The notes under the pieces were generated by a model. It did not search any database and was not told the origin of the DNA. It saw only the letters and a program-made list of their open reading frames with translations. The position numbers and the translations under genes were made by a program. From Bacteroidales bacterium (lineage in GTDB: Bacteria; Bacteroidota; Bacteroidia; Bacteroidales; GWA2-32-17), in assembly GCA_013314715.1 (NCBI GenBank), contig JABUFC010000013.1:1-64000 (forward strand): 64,000 nucleotides of DNA. The letters run 5' to 3'. This document shows positions 2,025 through 16,023 of this stretch, in pieces (the stretch's first letter is position 1; every line of letters starts with the position of its first letter).

Positions 2025-2086
2025 TTTGTTTTTCATTTTTTTTTTCTAAGTTTGTAACCCTTATTCTGCAATAAGCGTAATAAGGG
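2025..2086 (+). promoter_or_regulatory. Promoter and leader hairpin of the chaperone-usher-like locus
   Basis: A TTTG at 2025-2028 and a -7 box TAAGTTTG at 2047-2054 are separated by 18 bases. Directly downstream, CCCTTATT at 2058-2065 and AATAAGGG at 2079-2086 form a perfect 8-bp inverted repeat around a 13-base loop. Depending on the exact start it lies in the 5' untranslated region or overlaps the start site. The ATG follows at 2102. It could be an mRNA hairpin or a protein-binding site. Confidence 0.5.
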
Positions 2087-2101
2087 CAAAAATAACAAAC
2101 A

Positions 2102-2965
2102 ATGAAAAGAATAATTTTCCTACTTTCAATAAGTTTTTGTTTAAATTTATTGAACGCACAAAATGACAGTATTCGTTCTCAACGTCCTATTATTCCTGAT
2201 TCTGCTTTTAAAGATATGGGTGTATCAGTCTCCCCTTCGAGCTTTCATTTAAATATTACCCCTGGTAAATCAGTAGTAAAAGAAATCAAGGTTAAAAATG
2301 ATACTAAAAAAACGACTAAATTTAATGTTGGCTTTAATGACTTTGAAATGAGTAACCTAGGCAAGCCGATAACACCTACACAAAAAGAGTGTAAGTATTG
2401 TTTATCGCGTTATATAAGTGCTAGCCCTTCATATTTTGAGTTAAAACCAGGCGATGAGGTAAAGGTAAAGTTAAATATTGCCATTCCAGATAGTGATGAT
2501 GCTTATCGTGCTTTATGGACAATTGTAACAATAGATCAGGTGGTCGATCGTCCGCCTTTAGATTTAGAGCCACATCCTAACCGTCTTTCTATGGGAGTGA
2601 TTCCTTCTATTGGATTTGGAGTTTATGTTTATCAAAATCCTCCTAATGTTAAAATAAATAAAATTAATATTGAAAAATTTCAATATACCGAAAAAGATGG
2701 GAAAAGGTATTTCGATTTAAAAGTTAAAAATATAGGAGATGGTATTAGTTATTGTAGTTCATATGTGTCACTTACTAATTTAAATACTGGCGAACAAAAA
2801 AAAGTAAACGTAAAAAATTTCACCATTTTACCCCAGTTTATTAGAGATTTTAAAATAGATTTACCTACGAATTTGTTGCCAGGCAAATATTCGGCAGTTG
2901 GAGTTGTTGATTTTGGAAACGAAGAAGAAATGATAGCTGCTCAAGCTGATTTTGAAATCAAATAA
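2102..2965 (+). CDS. PapD-like periplasmic chaperone of a putative fimbrial locus
   Basis: A 287-aa secreted protein with a signal peptide (MKRIIFLLSISFCLNLLNAQ). Two Ig-like beta domains follow, about residues 38-150 and 180-287. The first begins with VSVSPSSFHLNITPGKS and later has SPSYFELKPGDEVKVKL. This is the pattern of periplasmic pilus chaperones and of DUF916-type proteins: an N-terminal edge strand, then a P-x-x-F-x-L-x-P-G strand. A CKYC pair near residue 98 could form a disulfide. It is first in a run of four same-strand genes ending in an usher-like barrel, which supports a role in holding unfolded subunits. The fold is my reading of the pattern; no family match was run. Other periplasmic Ig-fold proteins could look similar. 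Confidence 0.6.
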   Translation: MKRIIFLLSISFCLNLLNAQNDSIRSQRPIIPDSAFKDMGVSVSPSSFHLNITPGKSVVKEIKVKNDTKKTTKFNVGFNDFEMSNLGKPITPTQKECKYCLSRYISASPSYFELKPGDEVKVKLNIAIPDSDDAYRALWTIVTIDQVVDRPPLDLEPHPNRLSMGVIPSIGFGVYVYQNPPNVKINKINIEKFQYTEKDGKRYFDLKVKNIGDGISYCSSYVSLTNLNTGEQKKVNVKNFTILPQFIRDFKIDLPTNLLPGKYSAVGVVDFGNEEEMIAAQADFEIK

Positions 2966-3067
2966 TAAAAAATTGAAACATTTTGTAAAATATTAAAGTA
3001 TAAAAGCATAGTTTAACCCTAAAATTAATGAAAAAAATAATAGTTATAGAAAATAAAAACGATATAG

Positions 3068-3129
3068 TTCAATGGAATGTGAAGCACATGCCATTGAAAA
3101 GCGTTACAACTACGCTTAGTATAGTTGTA
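3068..3129 (+). other. Two tandem hairpins between the chaperone and first subunit genes
   Basis: Hairpin one (3068-3098): TTCAATGG and CCATTGAA enclose ATGTG and CACAT around a 3-base loop, 13 pairs with one A/G mismatch. Hairpin two (3105-3129): TACAACTA and TAGTTGTA, 8 pairs with a 9-base loop. Neither is followed by a T-run, so they are unlikely to be simple terminators. They sit in the 227-base gap before the abundant-looking subunit gene and may mark mRNA processing or protect the subunit message. Confidence 0.5.
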
Positions 3130-3192
3130 AAAACAATATTTATTAAATTTTTTAATTTAAAATCACTTAATGTTTAACTAAATTTTTTATCT

Positions 3193-3966
3193 ATGAAAAA
3201 AGTTTTTGGATTAATGGTAGGCATGTTCCTACTTTCTGGTTTAACATTCGGCCAGTTAATTGACGAAAAGAATGTAACCGTTACCATGGATTTGCAACCA
3301 GTTTTGCAACTCCACATGACAACCCCTGATCAAATTGATTTCACTTTTGATGAAATCAAAGATTACTATGGTGGTATTATTAAGTATGCTGCTACTATTT
3401 TAAAAGTTTCTTCTTCTGTTAGCTGGGATTTATATGCTGTAGGTACTTCACAAGGTGGTCAGTTTTGGGATCAACAAGTTAGTTACAGCAATGGTGGTGG
3501 TGCTAATTCAATTGCAAATATTCCGTTAAGTGCCCTTGAATTACATCAGTATGAACCTAACCAATATGATGTTAACGCTACTGGTACACAAACAGACTAC
3601 AGTGCTACATTTGCTCCTGCACAGACTTTAGCAGTTGGAGTAAATAGCATTTATTACAGTGCTACTCCTTACACTATTCCCGGGGCTGATCAAAAATACA
3701 TTCAAGGTCATAATGGTACTATTGCTGGTCAAGATGGTGCACCTGGTGGTAGTTATTTATCTTCTATTGCTCCTTCTGGAACATTTAGCGATTATTATTT
3801 CACTATTGACTATCGTATTTTACCTGGTTTGCCAGCCATTTTCCCAAATGCAGGGTTAAATGATGGTACTGCTGAAGACATTGTTTCGGTTAATGGTGTT
3901 AGCACTTATGCAGAACCAGGTGTTTATACTATGAATGTTAAATATATCTTATTAGAAGATCAATAG
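3193..3966 (+). CDS. Secreted fimbrial-subunit-like protein, paralogue 1
   Basis: 257 aa with a signal peptide ending LTFGQ near residue 21. No Por/T9SS C-terminal sorting domain is present. It shares three landmarks with the next gene: IDFTFDEIKDYYGGI (IDFTFSDMQKYISGI there), FTIDYRILPG (FNIDYRIIPG) and a C-terminal PGVYTMNVKYILLE (PGVYQITIHFCLEE). The two are therefore paralogous beta-rich secreted proteins. The position between a PapD-like chaperone and an usher-like barrel suggests a polymerising subunit. It is followed at once by a strong terminator and preceded by two hairpins, as would suit the most abundant product. I recognise no named family, and the pilin role is inference. Confidence 0.6.
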   Translation: MKKVFGLMVGMFLLSGLTFGQLIDEKNVTVTMDLQPVLQLHMTTPDQIDFTFDEIKDYYGGIIKYAATILKVSSSVSWDLYAVGTSQGGQFWDQQVSYSNGGGANSIANIPLSALELHQYEPNQYDVNATGTQTDYSATFAPAQTLAVGVNSIYYSATPYTIPGADQKYIQGHNGTIAGQDGAPGGSYLSSIAPSGTFSDYYFTIDYRILPGLPAIFPNAGLNDGTAEDIVSVNGVSTYAEPGVYTMNVKYILLEDQ

Positions 3967-3980
3967 TATTTCTTTTTAAT

Positions 3981-4019
3981 AAAGGGTTATTCTTTTTGGA
4001 ATAACCCTTTATTTTTTTG
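3981..4019 (+). terminator. Intrinsic terminator or attenuator inside the fimbria-like locus
   Basis: A perfect 12-bp stem (AAAGGGTTATTC at 3981-3992, GAATAACCCTTT at 3999-4010) with a 6-base loop is followed by ATTTTTTTG. It begins 14 bases after the stop of subunit 1 and ends only 3 bases before the ATG of subunit 2 at 4023. No promoter is evident in between, so read-through probably sets a lower level of subunit 2 and the usher. Confidence 0.8.
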
Positions 4020-4022
4020 TGT

Positions 4023-4661
4023 ATGAAAAAAATAATTTTCATAATATCACTAATTTTTGTGTCCAAAGTAATCGAAGCTCAGCTTTGTAACAATGTTACA
4101 ACAGCCAATTGTAGCGATGCTATTGCTGGAACTAGTCGATTTTATATGTCAACTTCTGGAAATATCGATTTCACTTTTTCCGATATGCAAAAATATATTT
4201 CGGGAATTACTTACAGTGGCTCTACTCAGCTTCGATTAAAGATAGATGAGATTGTTCCTGGTGCCTGCAAGTGGAAATTGATGATGTATATCGATAATAA
4301 TAATCACTTGCCGGCTAACGAATGGGAACCATTAGTTACATATGGAACCTCAGGAAATATTCCCGAACTAGATTTAATACAAGTTAAGGTATATAATGGT
4401 TGTGGTACTCCTTATCAAAATGGCGTTTATCAGATATTTGCAGGAAATACACAATACGATATTTTAGAAATAATACGCGATCCTCAGCCTTTACATCCAG
4501 CAGGTTCTTGCGATGGCACAGAAATTAATAGTGCCGGAAGTTATTTAACTGATTATAATGAATTTACTTTTAATATAGATTATAGAATAATTCCGGGATT
4601 TAGTCATCGCCCTGGAGTATATCAAATAACAATACATTTTTGTTTAGAAGAAGTTCCATAA
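4023..4661 (+). CDS. Secreted fimbrial-subunit-like protein, paralogue 2
   Basis: 212 aa starting at MKKIIFIISL; a TTG two codons upstream is also open but the ATG is preferred. The signal peptide ends near IEAQ. It is the shorter paralogue of the preceding gene, sharing the IDFTF...GI, NIDYRIIPG and C-terminal PGVYQITI motifs. It has more cysteines, including CNNVTTANC near the mature N-terminus and single ones in the body, so a disulfide-stabilised minor or tip subunit is conceivable. It is translated downstream of the terminator at 3981-4019, which would lower its expression relative to subunit 1. No T9SS sorting domain is visible. Function is inferred from context only. Confidence 0.6.
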   Translation: MKKIIFIISLIFVSKVIEAQLCNNVTTANCSDAIAGTSRFYMSTSGNIDFTFSDMQKYISGITYSGSTQLRLKIDEIVPGACKWKLMMYIDNNNHLPANEWEPLVTYGTSGNIPELDLIQVKVYNGCGTPYQNGVYQIFAGNTQYDILEIIRDPQPLHPAGSCDGTEINSAGSYLTDYNEFTFNIDYRIIPGFSHRPGVYQITIHFCLEEVP

Positions 4662-4687
4662 AAAAATCGGAATATAAAAATAAAAAG

Positions 4688-7600
4688 TTGAGGAAAACTC
4701 TAATAAATATAATTTTTTTAATTTATACTTGCGTTATATGGGCTCAGGAACCTATAAGCGATAGTATTACTGTTAAAAAAGATTCTTTGCCCTCTGTATC
4801 TGTACCCGATACCTCTCAAAATTTAATACCACCAACCACATCGACTATTAGCACTCCTGTTTTAAACCCTGAAAACTCTAATAAATTAGTTACCCGTTTT
4901 GCCAACCAAATAGTTGAATTTAAAAAGGGTGAACTTATTTCTAATGTTTTTATTGTTACAAATAATTTACCTAATGTTCAAAAATTTTATATAGATTTTA
5001 CTATACCTATAGAATGGAAAGTTATTGCGAAAAATCATACATTATATGAACTTCAACCAGGCGATAGCTTAATTATTCCAGTAAATATAATTCCCCGAGA
5101 AAGATTTAAAGGAAATACCCGTTTTATGTTTTATGCTTTTTTGTCTGACGAAAAGGGCAAAAATTTAGGCATGAATTTTTTTTATGGCTTAATAAAGAAA
5201 AATATTCGTTGGGCACTAACAGTGTCTGATAATAAAATATATATACCTAACAAAGTTGAATCAATACCCTTTACTATAGGTGTTGTTAATGAATCAACAG
5301 AAGAACAAGATATTTATTTAACAGCATCTTCGTTTAAGAAAAATATTTTAATTAAAGATTCAACAGACACTAAAGATGCATATTTTCCTATAACTGTAAC
5401 GTTGAAACCTTTTGGTGATACCTTGTTCAATTTTAATTTTCATCGCTTTAAAGAACCTCGAAATTTTCGATTGCTCGATATAGAAGACTATATACCATAT
5501 TCAACCGGTGAAGCAAAAAAATATAGATTAAATTTAAACAGTTATTCACCCAATCCTGCTGAAAATAAAAAATTTAGAACAGGGAATAAAATAGATTTTA
5601 TTGAATTATCCGACACATGGGAGGTTAATAAATATGGAGGCTTGGTAATACCTTTAATTTTTGACGCTAATATGTTTAATTTATTAGGTGATCAGCCCAT
5701 GATGACGGTTAATTTACGAGGTGAAACTTTTTTACGTGATAGCTCAATGCTTACTTATCAAACCCAATTAACTTATTTTTCAAACTATTTTACTACTGTA
5801 CCTTACGAAAATGCTCTATATAATTTGGGATATTATCATAAAAAGTTTTATATACAGTTTGGGAATGTTAGTTCGGGTTTAATAGGGACGTATCAAACCG
5901 GAAAAGGACTTAGAGGAGAATATTATTTTAATAGAAATCATCGTATTGGAGCATTTTATGTAGCTTCGCCGCAGTTATTTAAATTTATGCCTTCTATTTA
6001 TAGTTATGGTTTAAACCATTTTTATGAGAATAAAATAGTACGCGTAAATACTATTTTGGGTAGAAGTACAGATCAAATTCGTAATACAAATACTGAAATT
6101 GCAACAACCAATGCAAGTTTTAAATTTTTGAAAAGCCACTCATTTGGTATTCGATTGGGGGGTAGTCATTCGGTTCAAAACGATTCAAATTATACCCGTT
6201 TAGGTTATTTATTGGGTTTAAATTATTCGGGTAGCCCAATAAAAAAAATATGGGCACTTAATTTTAATGGGAATTATACTTCTCCATCGTTTGGTGTATT
6301 CTCGAATGAGCGAATAACAGTTAACTTAGGCAATCAGGTGACAATTAAGAAAAAATGGTTGCTTAAACAACAAAGCAATTTATATAGATATAAGCAAAAT
6401 TATTATGGCTTAAGTTACAGCAATTATTTTTTAAATAATCAACTTTTTATAAATAATGCAACACCACAATCAAACCTACTTTATAATCCGTATTTATTTT
6501 ATAATGTTAGTAGAATTTTAGATTTTACGGTTCATTCTCGAGGATTAGGTTTTAATGTAAGTAACTATAAGCTCGATAAAAATGTTCGTTATTTCTTTAA
6601 TATTCGTAGTGGGTATAATCAGGCGATGGACACTATTAACAAAAATTATTTTTTTACACAAGCAGCAGCATTTTTACAAATACGAACATGGTCGTTTTTA
6701 GTTCGTTACAATTTAGGCAATCTAAGTATGTCGAAACAATCGTTTTTTTACAATAGTGCAAAAAATCCTCAAAGTATAGGTTTGTCAACACGTTATCAAT
6801 ATCAGTTTAAAAATCCTTCTTTTGTATATCAACAGTTAGTTAGCTATTCGTATTCGAGTTTTAATGGGAATCAGTTTAATTTTACACCCGAAATAATGTA
6901 TTTTTCAAGAACAGGTTGGCGTTTTAGACTTTTTTCAGAAATAAATTTTTCTAAAAATAAAAAGAATAGTTTACCTGATTATTACTATTTCATGAATCAA
7001 GCCCCTAATGAAGAAATAAAAGAGCCACAATGGAATAGTAATTTTTATTTAGGTATGGGTGTGAGAAAAGAATTTGGAATTCCAATACCATTTGTAAAAC
7101 CTACTCATACGAGCATACAATTTAATGCTTTTTATGATACGAATGGAAACGGAAAGCATGAAGGCAATGAACCCAACTTAGAGAATGTTGTTGTTCGTCT
7201 TAATGGTTGGGAAGTTATGACGAATGAAAATGGGCTTTGCGGACTTAAAAATATTGCCATGGGAGCCTATCCATTGCAAGTTTTTTCTGTAATTGACTTA
7301 AAAGGATGGTTTCCTAATATCTCTGATACTTTAGTTGTAAACAAAAATACAAATAAAGTAAATATACCATTTGTTCGTGGGGTTAAAATTACAGGAAAAG
7401 TCTTTATTCAACGTGATCCCAATTCACCATCAGCAGATTTTAAATTAGATGTGTCGCGAATTAAAATTATTGCAAGTAATCATAAAACTTATACAGCTTT
7501 AACCGATAAAAATGGTTATTATGAACTTTATTTACCTGCAGGAAAATATATTTTAAGTATGGACGAAAGTATATTAGGCAAAAGACTCGAACTTATGCAG

Positions 7601-7726
7601 AATAATTTTGAACTCGAAATAAACGATAAGTTCGATAATTTGTTTATACCATTTTATATTGTTGAGAAGGCAAGAAAACTAAAAGTAATACGTTTTGATA
7701 GTAATGGGAATCGAATAGATGAATAG
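4688..7726 (+). CDS. Usher-like outer-membrane beta-barrel protein
   Basis: About 1,012 aa from a TTG start at 4688, which gives a clean signal peptide (MRKTLINIIFLIYTCVIWAQ). The frame is open to 4640 but that extension overlaps the previous gene. A Ser/Thr/Pro linker is followed by two Ig-like periplasmic domains (about 65-170 and 175-290). Next is a long stretch of alternating aromatic/polar beta strands (about 300-800), as in outer-membrane barrels. The end holds an SdrD-B-like domain with a calcium-loop-type DTNGNGKHEGNEP (about 805-895) and a carboxypeptidase-regulatory-like domain (about 900-985). Barrel plus small C-terminal beta domains recalls PapC/FimD ushers, and the segment NVSSGLIGTYQTGKGLRG resembles the usher barrel start. 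Placement after a chaperone and two subunits supports this. A generic large barrel is the alternative. Confidence 0.55.
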   Translation: MRKTLINIIFLIYTCVIWAQEPISDSITVKKDSLPSVSVPDTSQNLIPPTTSTISTPVLNPENSNKLVTRFANQIVEFKKGELISNVFIVTNNLPNVQKFYIDFTIPIEWKVIAKNHTLYELQPGDSLIIPVNIIPRERFKGNTRFMFYAFLSDEKGKNLGMNFFYGLIKKNIRWALTVSDNKIYIPNKVESIPFTIGVVNESTEEQDIYLTASSFKKNILIKDSTDTKDAYFPITVTLKPFGDTLFNFNFHRFKEPRNFRLLDIEDYIPYSTGEAKKYRLNLNSYSPNPAENKKFRTGNKIDFIELSDTWEVNKYGGLVIPLIFDANMFNLLGDQPMMTVNLRGETFLRDSSMLTYQTQLTYFSNYFTTVPYENALYNLGYYHKKFYIQFGNVSSGLIGTYQTGKGLRGEYYFNRNHRIGAFYVASPQLFKFMPSIYSYGLNHFYENKIVRVNTILGRSTDQIRNTNTEIATTNASFKFLKSHSFGIRLGGSHSVQNDSNYTRLGYLLGLNYSGSPIKKIWALNFNGNYTSPSFGVFSNERITVNLGNQVTIKKKWLLKQQSNLYRYKQNYYGLSYSNYFLNNQLFINNATPQSNLLYNPYLFYNVSRILDFTVHSRGLGFNVSNYKLDKNVRYFFNIRSGYNQAMDTINKNYFFTQAAAFLQIRTWSFLVRYNLGNLSMSKQSFFYNSAKNPQSIGLSTRYQYQFKNPSFVYQQLVSYSYSSFNGNQFNFTPEIMYFSRTGWRFRLFSEINFSKNKKNSLPDYYYFMNQAPNEEIKEPQWNSNFYLGMGVRKEFGIPIPFVKPTHTSIQFNAFYDTNGNGKHEGNEPNLENVVVRLNGWEVMTNENGLCGLKNIAMGAYPLQVFSVIDLKGWFPNISDTLVVNKNTNKVNIPFVRGVKITGKVFIQRDPNSPSADFKLDVSRIKIIASNHKTYTALTDKNGYYELYLPAGKYILSMDESILGKRLELMQNNFELEINDKFDNLFIPFYIVEKARKLKVIRFDSNGNRIDE

Positions 7727-8369: not shown

Positions 8370-9308
8370 ATGAAACTTGACCGCACTTATACTCTTGGCG
8401 AAATTGCCGAATGGCTAGAACTTCAATATTCTGGTGATAAAAATATTAAAATTACGGGTATAAGTGATGTTTATCATGCTAATTATGGCGATATTACCTT
8501 TGCTGATAATTTAAAGTATTTTGAATTAGCCAATAATAGTAACGCATCGGTTATTATTGTTCAGGATAATACGTTGGATTCGAATACCAAAGGAATTATT
8601 TATTGTTTCGATGCTTTTGAAACTTACAATAAATTAGCTACATTTTTTTTTCCTTTTAAAACGCAAGATGTAAATATACACCCCAATGCTCAAATTGGCG
8701 AAACCTCTTATCTTTTCCCTAATGTGTTTATAAGCGATCAGGTTGTTATTGGCGAAAATTGTATTATTTATCCGAATGTGGTTATTTATGGACCTTGTAT
8801 TATTGGGAATAATGTAACCATAAATGCTGGAGCAATTATTGGGTCCGATGCGTTTTATTACAAAAAATCAGAAAAAAAACACTTTAAATTACAATCAGTA
8901 GGATCTGTAATAATTGAAGATAATGTAGAAATTGGTGCTAAAACAACCATAGATAAAGGACTGGGCGGAACTACTATTATCGGCGAAGGTACCAAAATTG
9001 GGAATTCTGTTCAAATTGGTTTTGATACTAAAATTGGTAAAAACTGCTTCATCGCTGCTCAAACAGGTATTGCGTCGAATGTAATTATAGAAGACGATGT
9101 AGTGATTTGGGGACAAGTCGGGGTTTCGAAAAATGTTATGATAGGCAAAGAAGCTATTATTTTAGGACAAAGTGGAGTTACAAAATCGGTTGAAGGAGGA
9201 AAGATTTATTTTGGACTACCTGCCTCTGAATCACGCGAAAAAATGCGTGAGTTGGCTTATATTAAGCAAATACCAGAACTTATTAAACTGTTAAGCGAAC
9301 GATTATGA
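8370..9308 (+). CDS. LpxD-family left-handed beta-helix protein lacking catalytic histidines
   Basis: 312 aa with the LpxD layout: a uridine-binding-like N-terminal domain (about 1-95) and hexapeptide repeats (about 100-285). A true LpxD with IGHNVEIG (His241) is at 54.5-55.6 kb. Here the aligned position reads IGFDTKIG, with Phe218 in place of the catalytic histidine. The second conserved histidine, in GHLRI of the other copy, is Asn in SKNVMI. So it probably does not acylate UDP-3-O-acylglucosamine, or does so differently. It starts 7 bases after efp and overlaps the phosphatase gene by ATGA, so the three are probably cotranscribed. Often annotated as LpxD; I would call it an LpxD paralogue of unknown substrate. 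Confidence 0.8.
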   Translation: MKLDRTYTLGEIAEWLELQYSGDKNIKITGISDVYHANYGDITFADNLKYFELANNSNASVIIVQDNTLDSNTKGIIYCFDAFETYNKLATFFFPFKTQDVNIHPNAQIGETSYLFPNVFISDQVVIGENCIIYPNVVIYGPCIIGNNVTINAGAIIGSDAFYYKKSEKKHFKLQSVGSVIIEDNVEIGAKTTIDKGLGGTTIIGEGTKIGNSVQIGFDTKIGKNCFIAAQTGIASNVIIEDDVVIWGQVGVSKNVMIGKEAIILGQSGVTKSVEGGKIYFGLPASESREKMRELAYIKQIPELIKLLSERL

Positions 9309-10531
9309 CCGAAAAGGCATCACTAAAACGCTTGCAACTGTCCAATTTTAAATTGGAAGCCTTGTTAAGCATTACGCTATCTATTAACGAAAACTTGTCT
9401 ACTCAGGCACTTTTATCGAAATATGAAAATATTATTCGTAACGATTTAGGTATTGGTAAATTAGTGCTTTTTAATTACAATAAAAAATGGCAATGTCTTC
9501 TTGCTTCTGGTGTTAAAGACGATCAATATCTTTCAATTCAAGTTGAGAGCGACTTGTTACCATATAGAGAAATTACAAATTTAACTGTTTCTGAAAATCC
9601 TAAATTACATGGTTTTGATATCGTAATACCTGTTTTTCATAAGTCGATACCTTTAGCTTATGTATTGTTGGGCGATATTGAAGAAGAACGTGACGGCATT
9701 AGCCCTATTATTAAACATTTAAATTTTTTTCAAACACTCACCAATATATTAGTAGTTGCTATTGAAAATAAGCGTTTATATACCGAAAATATACAACAAG
9801 AAAGTATTAAGAAAGAATTAGATTTGGCTCGACAAATGCAAAGCATGTTAATACCAAATCCCGATACGCTTCCAAAAGACAATTTATTATTCGTAACTTC
9901 ATATTATCAACCTCATTATGAGGTAGGTGGCGATTATTACGACTTTTTTTATTTAAACGAAAACGAAGTCGGATTTTGTATTGCTGACGTTTCAGGAAAA
10001 GGAATTTCGGCCGCCTTATTAATGTCAAATTTTCAAGCTTCGCTAAGAGCTTTATTTACTTCTGATATTCAACTTAATCAGCTTATTTGTCGTTTAAATG
10101 CTATTGTAAATAAAAATACTAAGGGCGAAAAGTTTATTACAGCTTTTATTGGAAAATATAATATTCATAATCGCACAATGACTTTTGTAAATGCCGGACA
10201 TAATCCTCCTTTATTATATCTTGTCAATCATGAATATCAATATTTAAAAATAGGTTGTGCCGGATTAGGAATGTTGCCAGAAATTCCAAAAATCAATATT
10301 GGCGAAATAGAAATTCCCCAAAAATCAAAGCTAATTTGTTATACAGATGGTCTTGTAGAAATGGAAAATGAAAAGCACGAAGAATTTGGCACAAAAGAAA
10401 TGGAGCAATTAGTTGCTAAAGAAGAAAATCTCGATTTATTTATTTGGAAAATCATACAACGAGTGAATGTATATAGAGGCAAAATGCCTTTCTTTGATGA
10501 CATTTCATTACTTTGTATAGAATTTAAATAA
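9305..10531 (+). CDS. SpoIIE/RsbU-type PP2C serine phosphatase with GAF-like sensor
   Basis: 408 aa, cytoplasmic. Residues about 20-165 look like a GAF sensor. A helical linker (IKKELDLARQMQSMLIP) leads into the PP2C/SpoIIE domain (about 190-408). Its metal-binding landmarks are EVGGDYYDFF near 205-214, ADVSGKG, NAGHNPP, CYTDGLVE and the terminal FFDDISLL. Such phosphatases usually dephosphorylate an anti-sigma-antagonist (STAS) protein in partner-switching. No STAS or anti-sigma gene is visible nearby, so the partner is unknown. It overlaps the preceding LpxD-like gene by four bases. A peptide gene begins 46 bases downstream under its own promoter. Confidence 0.9.
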   Translation: MTEKASLKRLQLSNFKLEALLSITLSINENLSTQALLSKYENIIRNDLGIGKLVLFNYNKKWQCLLASGVKDDQYLSIQVESDLLPYREITNLTVSENPKLHGFDIVIPVFHKSIPLAYVLLGDIEEERDGISPIIKHLNFFQTLTNILVVAIENKRLYTENIQQESIKKELDLARQMQSMLIPNPDTLPKDNLLFVTSYYQPHYEVGGDYYDFFYLNENEVGFCIADVSGKGISAALLMSNFQASLRALFTSDIQLNQLICRLNAIVNKNTKGEKFITAFIGKYNIHNRTMTFVNAGHNPPLLYLVNHEYQYLKIGCAGLGMLPEIPKINIGEIEIPQKSKLICYTDGLVEMENEKHEEFGTKEMEQLVAKEENLDLFIWKIIQRVNVYRGKMPFFDDISLLCIEFK

Positions 10532-10731: not shown

Positions 10732-13700
10732 ATGAAAACATTTTTGCTTTTTATAACAGCTTTTATTTTTGTGTCTATATTAAAAGCTCAACATAACGAC
10801 CTTTTGTGGGTGAATCAAATCTCTGGAAATGGCAATAGTAAGCCTACTGCTGTGATTGAAGATGCCAGCGGTAATTTATATGTGATAGGTAATTACACCC
10901 AAACAATATCGCAAGGTACTTATACATTCACTTCTGCAGGGGGGCAGGATATTTATGTGGGCAAGTACAATTCTCAAGGGCAAGTACAGTGGTTGATTTC
11001 TATTGGGGGAAGCTCTGCCGAAAATGCCTACGGCATTGCCTTAAGCCCTGATGGAAATAGTGTTTATATCGGTGGACAATTTCAAAGCAATAACTGCAAC
11101 TTTGGCGGTACAACCTTAGCTACTTCAGGATTGAATGATGTTTTTCTGGCTAAATATAATGCCAGTAATGGAACCCTTGTTTGGGCAATAAAATCCGCTT
11201 ATGGAACCAATCAACAAATTATTGGACATTTAAATGTTGATAATCAAGGTAATGTAATACAAATTGGTAAATATATTGCTGATGTTACTTTTTATGGTGG
11301 AACGACTACTTTAACTTCTCTATATAGCGGTATTCAACAAAATTACATATCAAAATTCGATCAAGATGGAAATCTTTTATGGGCAAAAACATTTAAGGGA
11401 AATAATAATAATTCTTTACTAAGAACAGCTACTTCTGATAATAATTCTTACTATTTCAGCGGGCAATTTACCGATAGTCTTTATTTAGATGCTTTCGCTC
11501 TTAATAGTACTTCTTCCACTCGAGATATGGTTTTGTTTCGTACAGATTTAAATGGTAATGTGCAGTGGGTTCGTAAAGTTACAGGAAGTGGTGATGAGTT
11601 TTTATATCGTCATTATACCGATTTTTCGAGCTATCAATATGTGGCAGGATATTACGCAAGTCCAACTCTTACAATCGATTCTACATCTAGCGATGTTTCA
11701 CTTAAAATTTGCCCCAATCAAGGAAGTAACGACATTTTAGTGGCATGCTATGCTTTTGATGGTACCCTGCAATGGGTTCGAAATTATGGTTCAACGGGTG
11801 ATGATAAAGCAACAGGAGTTTATGCTAATGCCGAACATGCCATATTTACTGGATCTTATACCGGAAACATTACCTTTGGTTCATATAACCTTACAAACAA
11901 TAGTACCGATGCTTTTATGCTCGAAACCGATAGAAATGGTAATGTCTTAGGTGTTAATAATGCTTGGGGAACCGGCAATGATTATTGTGAAAACGGAAAA
12001 ATAAATGCCAATAATGCCAATACTTTTGTCGGATATTTTTACTCAGGAACTTTCAATATTGGTAATAAAACATTGACAAACGGAACACCAGCTACTACCG
12101 ATATGTTTATGGCAAAATATGGTAAAATAAACATCGCATTTACTACTACCAATAATGTTTGCTTTGGAGACCATATTGGAAGCATTGATGTAACTGTATC
12201 GGGCGATGGTACTGCTCCTTATACCTATGCATGGTCTGGTCCAAATGGTTTTACTTCTTCTGATGAAGATATTAGCAATCTTTATGCAGGTTGGTATAAA
12301 GTTACAGTTACCGATGCCAATAATGCTCAAAAAGTAGATTCTACATATATTTCAGAAGGAACTGCAATGGCTTTGGTGTTTAATACTCAAAGCACTTCAT
12401 GTTATGGGGTAAACGATGGTTCTATCAATTTAACCGTAACGGGTGGAGCTTCGCCCTATACCTACAACTGGAGTACGGGTAGTACGCAAGAAGATATTAA
12501 TGGTTTGGCACCAGGGTGGTATTATGTTACCGTTACCGATGCCAATAATTGCACTAAAAACGATTCGACGAAAGTGCTTTCTGCTCAACCTATAATTATT
12601 AGCGAATTAATTACACCCCCTTCTTGTACGCCCGGAAATGATGGCTCTATAGATTTATCAATAAACGGTGGAACACCAAATTATTCATTTATATGGTCAA
12701 ACGGACAAACCACTGAAGATATTATTAATATTTCTGCAGGTAACTTTAGTGTTACTGTAACCGATGCTAATAACTGTAGCAGTATAAAATCTTTTAATGT
12801 TGCTAATCCGCTTGCTCCAAGTATTAGTTATATTGTAAATGCACCTTCGTGCAATCCAGGAAACGATGGTACTATTGATTTAATTATTAGTGGTGGTACC
12901 ATACCCTTTACGTATGTTTGGGATAATGGAAGCAATTCCGAAGATTTATCAGGTCTTTCTGCTGGAAATTATAGTGTAACTGTAGTAGATAATAATAATT
13001 GTTCGTCCGTTGCAAGTAATATTATTGTTCCTATTAGCAATACGCCTTCTTTAACCACCATAATTCAAAAACCGGGTTGCAATCCTGGCAATGACGGCTC
13101 TATTGACTTAATTGTATATAATGGTACTGCACCATTTACTTATAATTGGAATAATGGAGCAACGACCGAAGATATTTCTAATCTTGCTGCCGGAAATTAT
13201 AGCGTAACGGTAACAGATAATAAAAATTGTACGGCAGTTCAAAGTGTAACATTAACCATCGATTCACCGGTTGTTAATATCACTTATCATGGAAATACAA
13301 CTTTCTGCGAAGGTGATAGTCTAATGCTTTATGCTACCAATGGTTCTAACTTAACTTACGAATGGTATAATGGTTCTACTTCCATTATCAACAGTAATAC
13401 ACCGATATTACCAGCCTACAACAGTGGGAATTACTATGTTGTTGCAACCAATAGTGTAGGTTGTAAAGGCTATTCTGATACGGTTACCATTACTGTAAAT
13501 CCAAAGCCCAATATTACCATCAATGCTTCATCAAATTTTATTTGCGAAGGGACTCCTATACTTTTAACTGCTAATGGTGGGGTTTCATATTTATGGAGCA
13601 ATAGTTCTACTACTAATCCCATAACGGTTATACCAACTTCAACTACAACTTATGCAGTAACCGGCACCGATGCAAATGGGTGCTTTAATGTAGCTCAAGT

Positions 13701-16023
13701 AGCTATTACTGTTAATGCCAATCCTTCTATTGCAGGTGCCATTACACACGAAACATGTGCTGCCAATACAGGAGCTATTGATTTAACTATTACCGGAGGA
13801 AATGCACCATATTCTTTTATTTGGTCTAATTCAGCAACGACTGAAGATTTAAGTAACATTGCTGCCGGAAATTATGCCGTAACAGTTACTTCTGCTACAA
13901 ATTGTACTTCTACATATACAGCGGTAGTAAATGCCTTTGTACCTTTATCGGCGACTATTAATACGCATACCATGGTTCTTTTCTGCTCAAATGTGGCAAA
14001 TGGCGAAGTTCATGTTACAGCAACCAATGGAAGTCAGCCTTATAGTTATCAGTGGTCTAATGGTGTTACTACTTCGTACAATAATCAAATTGGTGTTGGA
14101 ACAACTTATGTAACGGTTACCGATCAATGTAATACAACTGTTGTAGATTCTATTGTAGCTACAAGTTTACCACCTATGCAAGCAAGCATTATAAACAGTT
14201 CTCCTGCTTCTTGTTCTACTAGCGCCAATGGAACAGCCGAAGTTAGTGCAAGTTCGGGTATTGCTCCTTATACGTATGTGTGGTCAAATTCTATTAGCAC
14301 CACTAATATTGCAAACGATTTACCTGTAGGATGGCAATATGTAACAGTTTCTGATTATTGTAGCAGCATTGTCGATTCTGTAGAAATAACTTCACTACCT
14401 CCTATGCAAGCTTCGATTTCTTTCTCTGCCCCTGTTTCTTGTGTCGGTTTAAACAATGGCTTAGCTATGGTTTCCATTACCGATGGTGTAGCTCCTTTTT
14501 CGTTTGTATGGTCAAATGGTGAAAATACGCAAACAGCAACTCAATTACCACAAGGTCTTAATAGTGTAACGGTTACCGATGCTTGTGGATGGGTTGTTTT
14601 ATCGGTGAATACAGGATTGCAAAATCCAATGAGTTTAAGTATGGGAACTCCTACACCTGTTTCTTGTATAAATAGCTCCAATGGTAGTGCAACTATTAAT
14701 GTTTACGATGGTGCCGGTCCATTTACTTATGTTTGGTCGTCGGGCGATACATTGGCAACAGCTACTCATTTAACCTATGGATGGAATTACGTTACGGTTA
14801 CCGATGCTTGTTCTACATTGACCGACTCGGTTAATATTGACGTAATACCACCGGTTCAGGCAGATATTACTTTTACAGTGGATGCTTCTTGCTCCAATAG
14901 TAATGATGGAAAGGCAACGGTAAATGTTCAAAATGGTGTTGCACCCTTTACTTATGCTTGGTCTAATTCAAGTAGTACCTCGAATGTAGCCTTAGATTTG
15001 CATCCTGGATGGAATTATGTAACGGTTACCGATCAATGTGGTAGCTCTGTCGATTCTGTTGAAATAAGCTATAAAATGCCTTTACAGGCGATTATTTCGT
15101 ATAATCAAGCAACAGATTGTGTTTATGATAGTACAGGTATGGTTATTGTTACTCCTGCCTATGGCGTACAGCCTTATTCGTATGCTTGGAGTTATGGAAC
15201 TGATACCGATAGTATTTTACAAAATTTACCCGTAGGAAATTATTTTGTTACGGTAAGCGATTTTTGTGGAAGTGTTGTTGTTCCGTTTAGTGTAAGCAAT
15301 AAAACACCCTTATCAATTGATTATCAAAAAGAAAATGTTTCGTGTTTTGGAAATAATAACGGTTCAATCGTATTAATACCTCAAAATGGTGTTGCCCCTT
15401 ATACATATGTATGGCAAAATAGCATTGAAACGGACTCAATACGAACAAATTTATCTGCGGGTATCTATAAATTTACGATTACCGATAAATGTGGTAGTGT
15501 ATCTGATTCTGTAATTATTCGTCAACCAGGACAACTATCGGCTTCGGCTTTGGTTACTAATGTCTCATTCGAAGGATTGAGTGATGGCAAAGTAGATTTG
15601 CTGGTATTTGGTGGAACACAGCCCTATTCGTACAATTGGTCAAATGGCGCTGTTACAGAAGATATTTCAAATATAATTGCTGGGACTTATTATGTTACTA
15701 TAAGCGATGACAATGGTTGTATATTAATCGATTCTGTGGTTGTTAATAGTGAAGGTAAGCATATAGAAATTTATAATTCGTTTACTCCTAATGGTGATGG
15801 TAAAAACGATGTTTGGAATATTAAATATATACAAGCATTTCCAAATTGTGAAGTATTAATTTATGACCAATGGGGCGTAAAAGTTTTTGAATCGAATGGT
15901 TATGCCACACCATGGGATGGGAAAAAAGGTGGAAAAGACTTACCAGCTGCAACATATTATTATGTAATAGATTTAAATGATGGAAGCCAACCATTAACTG
16001 GTTCGGTAACGATAATAAAATAA
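10732..16023 (+). CDS. Giant T9SS surface adhesin: SBBP propeller, SprB repeats, CHU_C sorting domain
   Basis: 1,763 aa. A signal peptide (MKTFLLFITAFIFVSILKAQ) is followed by SBBP-type beta-propeller repeats (about 25-465) of the form W-V-K-x-x-G-S-G-D. From about 470 to 1665 there are SprB repeats of 70-80 residues, each with GG-x-x-PY-x-Y-x-WSNG...G-x-Y-x-VTVTD. Two Ig-like segments with conserved cysteines interrupt them near 845-1000. The last 85 residues carry the gliding-motility-associated C-terminal domain (SFTPNGDGKNDVW ... GVKVFESNG ... PWDGK), which targets the protein to type IX secretion. It is probably a cell-surface adhesin of the SprB kind. No PorP/SprF gene is adjacent, unlike the adhesin at 44.7-49.4 kb. 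A leader-like peptide gene sits immediately upstream. Confidence 0.93.
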   Translation: MKTFLLFITAFIFVSILKAQHNDLLWVNQISGNGNSKPTAVIEDASGNLYVIGNYTQTISQGTYTFTSAGGQDIYVGKYNSQGQVQWLISIGGSSAENAYGIALSPDGNSVYIGGQFQSNNCNFGGTTLATSGLNDVFLAKYNASNGTLVWAIKSAYGTNQQIIGHLNVDNQGNVIQIGKYIADVTFYGGTTTLTSLYSGIQQNYISKFDQDGNLLWAKTFKGNNNNSLLRTATSDNNSYYFSGQFTDSLYLDAFALNSTSSTRDMVLFRTDLNGNVQWVRKVTGSGDEFLYRHYTDFSSYQYVAGYYASPTLTIDSTSSDVSLKICPNQGSNDILVACYAFDGTLQWVRNYGSTGDDKATGVYANAEHAIFTGSYTGNITFGSYNLTNNSTDAFMLETDRNGNVLGVNNAWGTGNDYCENGKINANNANTFVGYFYSGTFNIGNKTLTNGTPATTDMFMAKYGKINIAFTTTNNVCFGDHIGSIDVTVSGDGTAPYTYAWSGPNGFTSSDEDISNLYAGWYKVTVTDANNAQKVDSTYISEGTAMALVFNTQSTSCYGVNDGSINLTVTGGASPYTYNWSTGSTQEDINGLAPGWYYVTVTDANNCTKNDSTKVLSAQPIIISELITPPSCTPGNDGSIDLSINGGTPNYSFIWSNGQTTEDIINISAGNFSVTVTDANNCSSIKSFNVANPLAPSISYIVNAPSCNPGNDGTIDLIISGGTIPFTYVWDNGSNSEDLSGLSAGNYSVTVVDNNNCSSVASNIIVPISNTPSLTTIIQKPGCNPGNDGSIDLIVYNGTAPFTYNWNNGATTEDISNLAAGNYSVTVTDNKNCTAVQSVTLTIDSPVVNITYHGNTTFCEGDSLMLYATNGSNLTYEWYNGSTSIINSNTPILPAYNSGNYYVVATNSVGCKGYSDTVTITVNPKPNITINASSNFICEGTPILLTANGGVSYLWSNSSTTNPITVIPTSTTTYAVTGTDANGCFNVAQVAITVNANPSIAGAITHETCAANTGAIDLTITGGNAPYSFIWSNSATTEDLSNIAAGNYAVTVTSATNCTSTYTAVVNAFVPLSATINTHTMVLFCSNVANGEVHVTATNGSQPYSYQWSNGVTTSYNNQIGVGTTYVTVTDQCNTTVVDSIVATSLPPMQASIINSSPASCSTSANGTAEVSASSGIAPYTYVWSNSISTTNIANDLPVGWQYVTVSDYCSSIVDSVEITSLPPMQASISFSAPVSCVGLNNGLAMVSITDGVAPFSFVWSNGENTQTATQLPQGLNSVTVTDACGWVVLSVNTGLQNPMSLSMGTPTPVSCINSSNGSATINVYDGAGPFTYVWSSGDTLATATHLTYGWNYVTVTDACSTLTDSVNIDVIPPVQADITFTVDASCSNSNDGKATVNVQNGVAPFTYAWSNSSSTSNVALDLHPGWNYVTVTDQCGSSVDSVEISYKMPLQAIISYNQATDCVYDSTGMVIVTPAYGVQPYSYAWSYGTDTDSILQNLPVGNYFVTVSDFCGSVVVPFSVSNKTPLSIDYQKENVSCFGNNNGSIVLIPQNGVAPYTYVWQNSIETDSIRTNLSAGIYKFTITDKCGSVSDSVIIRQPGQLSASALVTNVSFEGLSDGKVDLLVFGGTQPYSYNWSNGAVTEDISNIIAGTYYVTISDDNGCILIDSVVVNSEGKHIEIYNSFTPNGDGKNDVWNIKYIQAFPNCEVLIYDQWGVKVFESNGYATPWDGKKGGKDLPAATYYYVIDLNDGSQPLTGSVTIIK

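Follow-up and report, generated by a model that had tools for sequence, protein, structure and literature searches.

Do Bacteroidota, known for type V (FimA/Mfa) pili and for the type IX secretion system (T9SS), also possess pili put together in the manner of chaperone-usher systems? The question is raised by a 64,000-nucleotide stretch of DNA, here called the window, which is positions 1 to 64,000 of contig JABUFC010000013.1 (forward strand; assembly GCA_013314715.1) of a Bacteroidales bacterium. Near its start a first reading, made without database searches and here called the sequence-only reading, had recognised a same-strand set of genes for a PapD-like chaperone, a subunit, a paralogous subunit and a large usher-like barrel. 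The four genes are indeed all on the plus strand, as is every feature given below, and they occupy 2102-7726, the locus beginning at 2102 and not at 2025 as was then put. They are very probably a donor-strand pilus operon working like the chaperone-usher pathway, and the system, which is unannotated, is a variant of its own whose usher lacks a plug; it is not placed in the known usher family because both a PF00577 match and a plug were sought and neither was found. Chaperone-usher systems are listed for Proteobacteria, Cyanobacteria and Deinococcus-Thermus, with Bacteroidota not among them (PMC4654587).

The four genes and their recurrence

The first gene (2102-2965) encodes the chaperone, P0001, of 287 amino acids, with a signal peptide and then two beta domains. 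It is followed by the genes for a shaft, or major, subunit, P0002 (257 amino acids; 3193-3966), for a second subunit, P0003 (212 amino acids; 4023-4661), and for an outer-membrane barrel protein, P0004 (1012 amino acids; 4688-7726), which AlphaFold2 and Foldseek indicate to be usher-like and whose start codon is TTG at 4688, an alternative TTG start at 4640 being possible. The signal peptides claimed at the outset were found on all four proteins, and the two subunits are paralogous as asserted, their profiles (subA and subB) matching at 99.3% probability. Pfam and NCBIfam give no family name to any of the four. In those two databases the subunits have no FimA/Mfa family match, which rules out type V pili, and on neither subunit was a T9SS C-terminal sorting domain matched, which bears out the earlier statement and rules out T9SS cargo. 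A DEAD-box helicase gene flanks the set on one side and efp/lpxD on the other.

Could the four genes lie together by chance? They do not, since the same set occurs in further genomes, between other neighbours and in other gene orders. Chaperone, subunit(s) and barrel are held together by 16 of the 22 named loci; the other six, in which the set is incomplete, all begin near a contig end. At all 13 chaperone-anchored loci from the same class, subunit and barrel genes are present. The flanking genes differ between genomes, and the chaperone gene may be 5′ or 3′ of the barrel gene and is sometimes divergent from it, so that shared position alone is no explanation for the recurrence. Chaperone, subunits and barrel are a conserved unit in Bacteroidota, and the co-conservation that the sequence-only reading had named as a check is strong. 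Of 390 genomes sampled from the phylum, 53, or about 1 in 7, match the chaperone profile; this tally is used in place of one made with the barrel profile (323 of 395), which was discarded because OmpA tails in the barrel alignment produced most of its matches. Cultured carriers are Natronoflexus pectinivorans DSM 24179 (L069) and Alkalitalea saponilacus DSM 24412 (L071). Outside the class the subunit profiles fail to detect the small secreted neighbours of the chaperone, and at two loci there (L162, L164) no large gene adjoins it. On a Deinococcus plasmid (L031, 5869-11554) a homologue of the chaperone (E 3e-23) sits in a comparable arrangement of four genes, the remaining ones of which are undetectable by profile. 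At six loci (L040, L041, L044, L045, L046, L049) the chaperone gene is paired with a gene for a protein of 360-397 amino acids, and the two such partners that were scanned (L044, L045) have MORN_2 repeats.

Subunits, fibres and the chaperone

What would the fibre be? The P0002 family profile matches PDB chains 9ikk_A (TLP-2; E 2e-60) and 9ikj_A (TLP-1; E 5e-59), from entries with 16 chains each, and the alignment runs full length, from the predicted mature N-terminus, which is in register, through the last strand. Going by the name, we take TLP to be short for Tsinghua Lotus Pond, the filaments being those of the CryoSeek study. With a TLP-2 query whose letters were taken from the HMMER alignment, the present genome ranks first among 393 genomes of the order, and P0002 of the window is the closest among the relatives collected, though the identity is only 43.4% over 228 amino acids. 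A 2026 review speaks of the pond-water filaments as being without conclusive identification (PMC12967142). TLP-1 and TLP-2 are probably those filaments, and the CryoSeek study may already propose a similar origin for them.

The mature N-terminal extension of P0002, residues 21-44 (3253-3324; QLIDEKNVTVTMDLQPVLQLHMTT), is a putative donor strand and the best conserved segment of the mature protein (0.82 against 0.64 for the core; in the broad family, 0.53 against 0.34). The N-terminal strand at issue in the 9IKJ and 9IKK protomers is LISEQNVTVTMDLQPVLQL. Towards the other end, the C-terminal strand (3907-3963; TYAEPGVYTMNVKYILLEDQ) has a conservation of 0.81. A CfaB-like N-terminus of P0002, seen by eye, was set aside, no family match supporting it, and a made-up spore-coat-U query gave no match. 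Nearly identical copies of the shaft subunit stand in tandem at three loci (L149, L158, L057).

P0003 is likely a tip or initiator subunit without a donor-strand extension, judging by its family. From the cleavage site to the shared core motif there are usually 30-31 residues in the P0002 family and a median of 19 in the P0003 family (by a simple cleavage rule, and with related, hence non-independent, sequences), and from the shorter distance P0003-type proteins would generally be without the N-terminal extension. The window’s own P0003 has 31 residues there, but with a Cys-containing insertion in place of a donor-like strand. Flavobacterium-like loci of the same class encode a protein of 340-478 amino acids in which an additional N-terminal region is joined to a C-terminal subunit domain beginning past the donor-like extension, a layout like that of the tip adhesin FimH. 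Directly 3′ of the P0002 gene is a terminator-like hairpin of 16 bp with a T tail (3978-4013), a putative attenuator. A perfect hairpin with T tail is found in the gap 3′ of the shaft gene at 17 of 29 testable loci, the window included, where mononucleotide shuffles lead one to expect 0.1 loci, and its conservation fits over-production of the shaft subunit. The hairpin, the link to TLP, the strand that the second-subunit family appears to lack and the link to WxLIP described next are additions to what the sequence-only reading contained.

For the chaperone, the nearest relatives found are not the classical ones. In profile-profile comparison P0001 reaches 94% with WxLIP (DUF916-DUF3324) and 69% with a K-12 set of PapD and Ecp chaperones, over 195 columns and both domains (reversed controls, 0.3%), and 1.6% with K-12 PapD-type chaperones alone. 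The top PDB matches of its profile are EfmWxLIP1 structures (E 0.005), while against Pfam P0001 falls under the cut-off for WxLIP_PGBD (PF06030; 7.4e-6, 26.4 bits against 27.3). Its putative donor strand, placed by alignment at the end of domain 1 (2585-2635; LSMGVIPSIGFGVYVYQ), has alternating hydrophobics with invariant F172 and Q178, and aligns to the KNEYxYVVG...RQT stretch of WxLIP. AlphaFold2 is reported to predict that a hairpin strand of WxLIP completes the WxL fold (PMC10599100), a donor-strand-like act, and the KNEYxYVVG...RQT stretch would be the strand predicted to insert.

Might the locus then be the diderm counterpart of the WxL surface platform known from Firmicutes, in which P0001 stays bound to its subunits, a peptidoglycan-tied barrel merely displays them, and no long fibre is made? 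WxL clusters typically have one WxLIP and two WxL proteins (PMC10599100), and the present set likewise has a two-Ig WxLIP-like protein and two small beta proteins, together with the nearness of its chaperone to WxLIP and the OmpA or SPOR tails of barrel relatives discussed below. The subunits carry the comparison less far: Pfam WxL (PF13731) has no match on either, subA has no WxL similarity by profile, and that of subB is weak, scoring 26.8 against 16.8 for the best shuffle, a lenient control since shuffling the columns breaks up the beta pattern; WxL-subunit homology is only suggestive. Moreover P0001, which ends ...AQADFEIK, has no C-terminal transmembrane helix, unlike WxLIP, and the present set adds an outer-membrane barrel. 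As the shaft-subunit family forms multi-chain PDB assemblies, and as there are tandem shaft paralogues and an attenuator-like hairpin, we consider a display platform without a fibre very improbable.

The barrel protein and its relatives

Is P0004 an usher? Its AlphaFold2 model (mean predicted local distance difference test, pLDDT, 79.9) agrees with the N-terminal Ig domains, barrel and two C-terminal beta domains that had been proposed from the letters: two N-terminal beta-sandwich domains (residues 67-286; 4886-5545), where periplasmic chaperone docking is presumed, a 26-strand barrel (residues 320-799; 5645-7084) and two C-terminal domains, one SdrD_B-like and one CarboxypepD_reg-like (residues 807-993; 7106-7666). 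This order is that of the usher architecture. There is no inserted plug in the model, the longest inter-strand loop having 23 residues. Foldseek with the model ranks FimD 1-6 (best E 7e-14; TM-scores about 0.25-0.35) and PapC 10. In VIA-align the first place goes to MtrB, which has 26 strands (Z 19.8; root-mean-square deviation 5.0), with FimD and PapC at Z 13-15, and from these scores the barrel geometry is nearer MtrB and the architecture nearer ushers. The full-length FimD and PapC rows cover barrel and C-terminal domains, model residues 319-992 aligning to FimD 138-833 and residues up to 992-994 pairing with FimD 833 and PapC 808. The sequence-only reading had held that a plugless barrel with a strand count unlike that of ushers would speak against its case; in part this is what the model gives, though the domain order and the top Foldseek matches are usher-like. 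Among 20 barrel relatives the C-terminal tail is OmpA in 9 and SPOR in 3; such tails suggest that these proteins are anchored to peptidoglycan and have the C-terminus in the periplasm.

A bridge to classical ushers comes from one clade. Across 385 genomes of the phylum PF00577 has only four matches, each below its cut-off and each from family f141, and in every case the large gene adjoins a member of the P0001 chaperone family. Between the f141 profile and K-12 ushers the match is 91%, across strands and plug region; between it and the P0004 barrel family the match is 94%, across the C-terminal domains (reversed controls, 0.2-0.6%), the latter match being support and not proof since these domains are of common fold types. 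Since in f141 plug-bearing ushers go with the same chaperone family, divergence is favoured over pure convergence. The sequence-only reading had offered a divergent or a convergent donor-strand system: its chaperone-usher-like core stands, and the choice it left leans to the former. The f141 loci (L170-L173) contain candidate ushers with a plug, SPOR-tailed for the most part, and some have DUF4402-like small proteins nearby.

What counts against a pilus operon of chaperone-usher type? P0001 is under the PapD_N cut-off, and both the missing strand of the subunits and the exchange of strands are things we infer, the AlphaFold2 subunit model (pLDDT 36.6) being unusable and a Foldseek search with it meaningless. 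The barrel, with 26 strands and no plug, is not the 24-strand plugged barrel of ushers, and MtrB fits its geometry better than does FimD. PF00577 has no match in the genome itself and none over cut-off in the phylum set, the barrel-family profile taken directly against K-12 ushers gives only 1-16%, and the f141 bridge reaches the P0004 barrels through those common-fold C-terminal domains. The strand number, the lack of a plug, the missing PF00577 match and MtrB as best geometric match would all suit a general outer-membrane pore or anchor, the fibre leaving by some other route such as T9SS and the likeness to ushers being convergent; that we hold to be very improbable in view of the tight co-conservation with chaperone and subunits, the usher domain order, the subunits’ lack of a T9SS sorting domain and the f141 clade with its plug-bearing ushers. 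A plain porin is ruled out by the usher-like Foldseek matches and the same co-conservation. That unrelated genes for secreted beta proteins merely lie side by side is scarcely credible, for though distant relatives show low sequence conservation, the 16 of 22 named and 13 of 13 same-class chaperone loci refute it.

Elsewhere in the window, a SpoIIE-like phosphatase candidate (9305-10531) lies two genes downstream of the set; at three other loci (L041, L044, L049) a TPR-SpoIIE gene is directly upstream of the subunit genes, which hints at regulation. At 10732-16023 is a gene for a repetitive secreted protein of 1763 amino acids whose C-terminus, by eye, is of gliding/T9SS type.

A proposed assembly route and its meaning

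If the four genes are a chaperone-usher-like operon, how might it work? All four proteins, as their signal peptides show, are exported to the periplasm, where P0001 would bind each subunit and lend it the alternating-hydrophobic strand of domain 1. P0004 would be a 26-strand outer-membrane pore with its N- and C-terminal domains both periplasmic, as is indicated by the even strand count and the peptidoglycan-binding OmpA and SPOR tails of relatives, and on those domains chaperone-subunit complexes would dock. P0003 would go out first, as the tip, its family being mostly without the N-terminal extension, and P0002 would then be added repeatedly, its N-terminal strand taking the place of the chaperone strand in the subunit added before it; donor-strand exchange of this kind is what the conserved extension leads us to expect. 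The hairpin, to judge by its conservation, would keep shaft in excess over tip and usher, and the product would be a helical fibre related to the TLP-1 and TLP-2 assemblies. At rest the plugless barrel may, at a guess, be closed by its N-terminal domains or by a parked chaperone-subunit complex.

The proposed system resembles chaperone-usher pili (FimCD and P pili; archaic Csu; alternative ECP) in gene set, in a two-domain periplasmic chaperone, in an outer-membrane barrel flanked by beta domains at both termini, and in an extended shaft subunit, a mostly unextended second family and a hairpin 3′ of the shaft gene. It differs from them not only in its barrel and in the standing of P0001 against PapD_N but also in subunits that are unrelated by profile to K-12 pilins. 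With type V pili it shares the phylum and a donor-strand polymer, without their FimA/Mfa families, and they are not known to have a chaperone or usher gene. Tentatively, and well aware that it may prove wrong, we would go further and suppose a phylum-wide donor-strand pilus lineage, with 26-strand ushers that lack a plug and chaperones related to WxLIP, that makes the pond-water TLP filaments and links diderm chaperone-usher pili and Firmicutes WxL clusters by common descent.

A second pilus pathway in Bacteroidota, its chaperone in about a seventh of sampled genomes, would fill a large gap. It would give the TLP fibres a likely gene address, an assembly route and a host phylum, with Natronoflexus and Alkalitalea as cultured hosts. 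A plugless usher raises the issue of how so large a pore stays shut, and, if the WxLIP link is true, the origin of chaperone-usher systems becomes testable.

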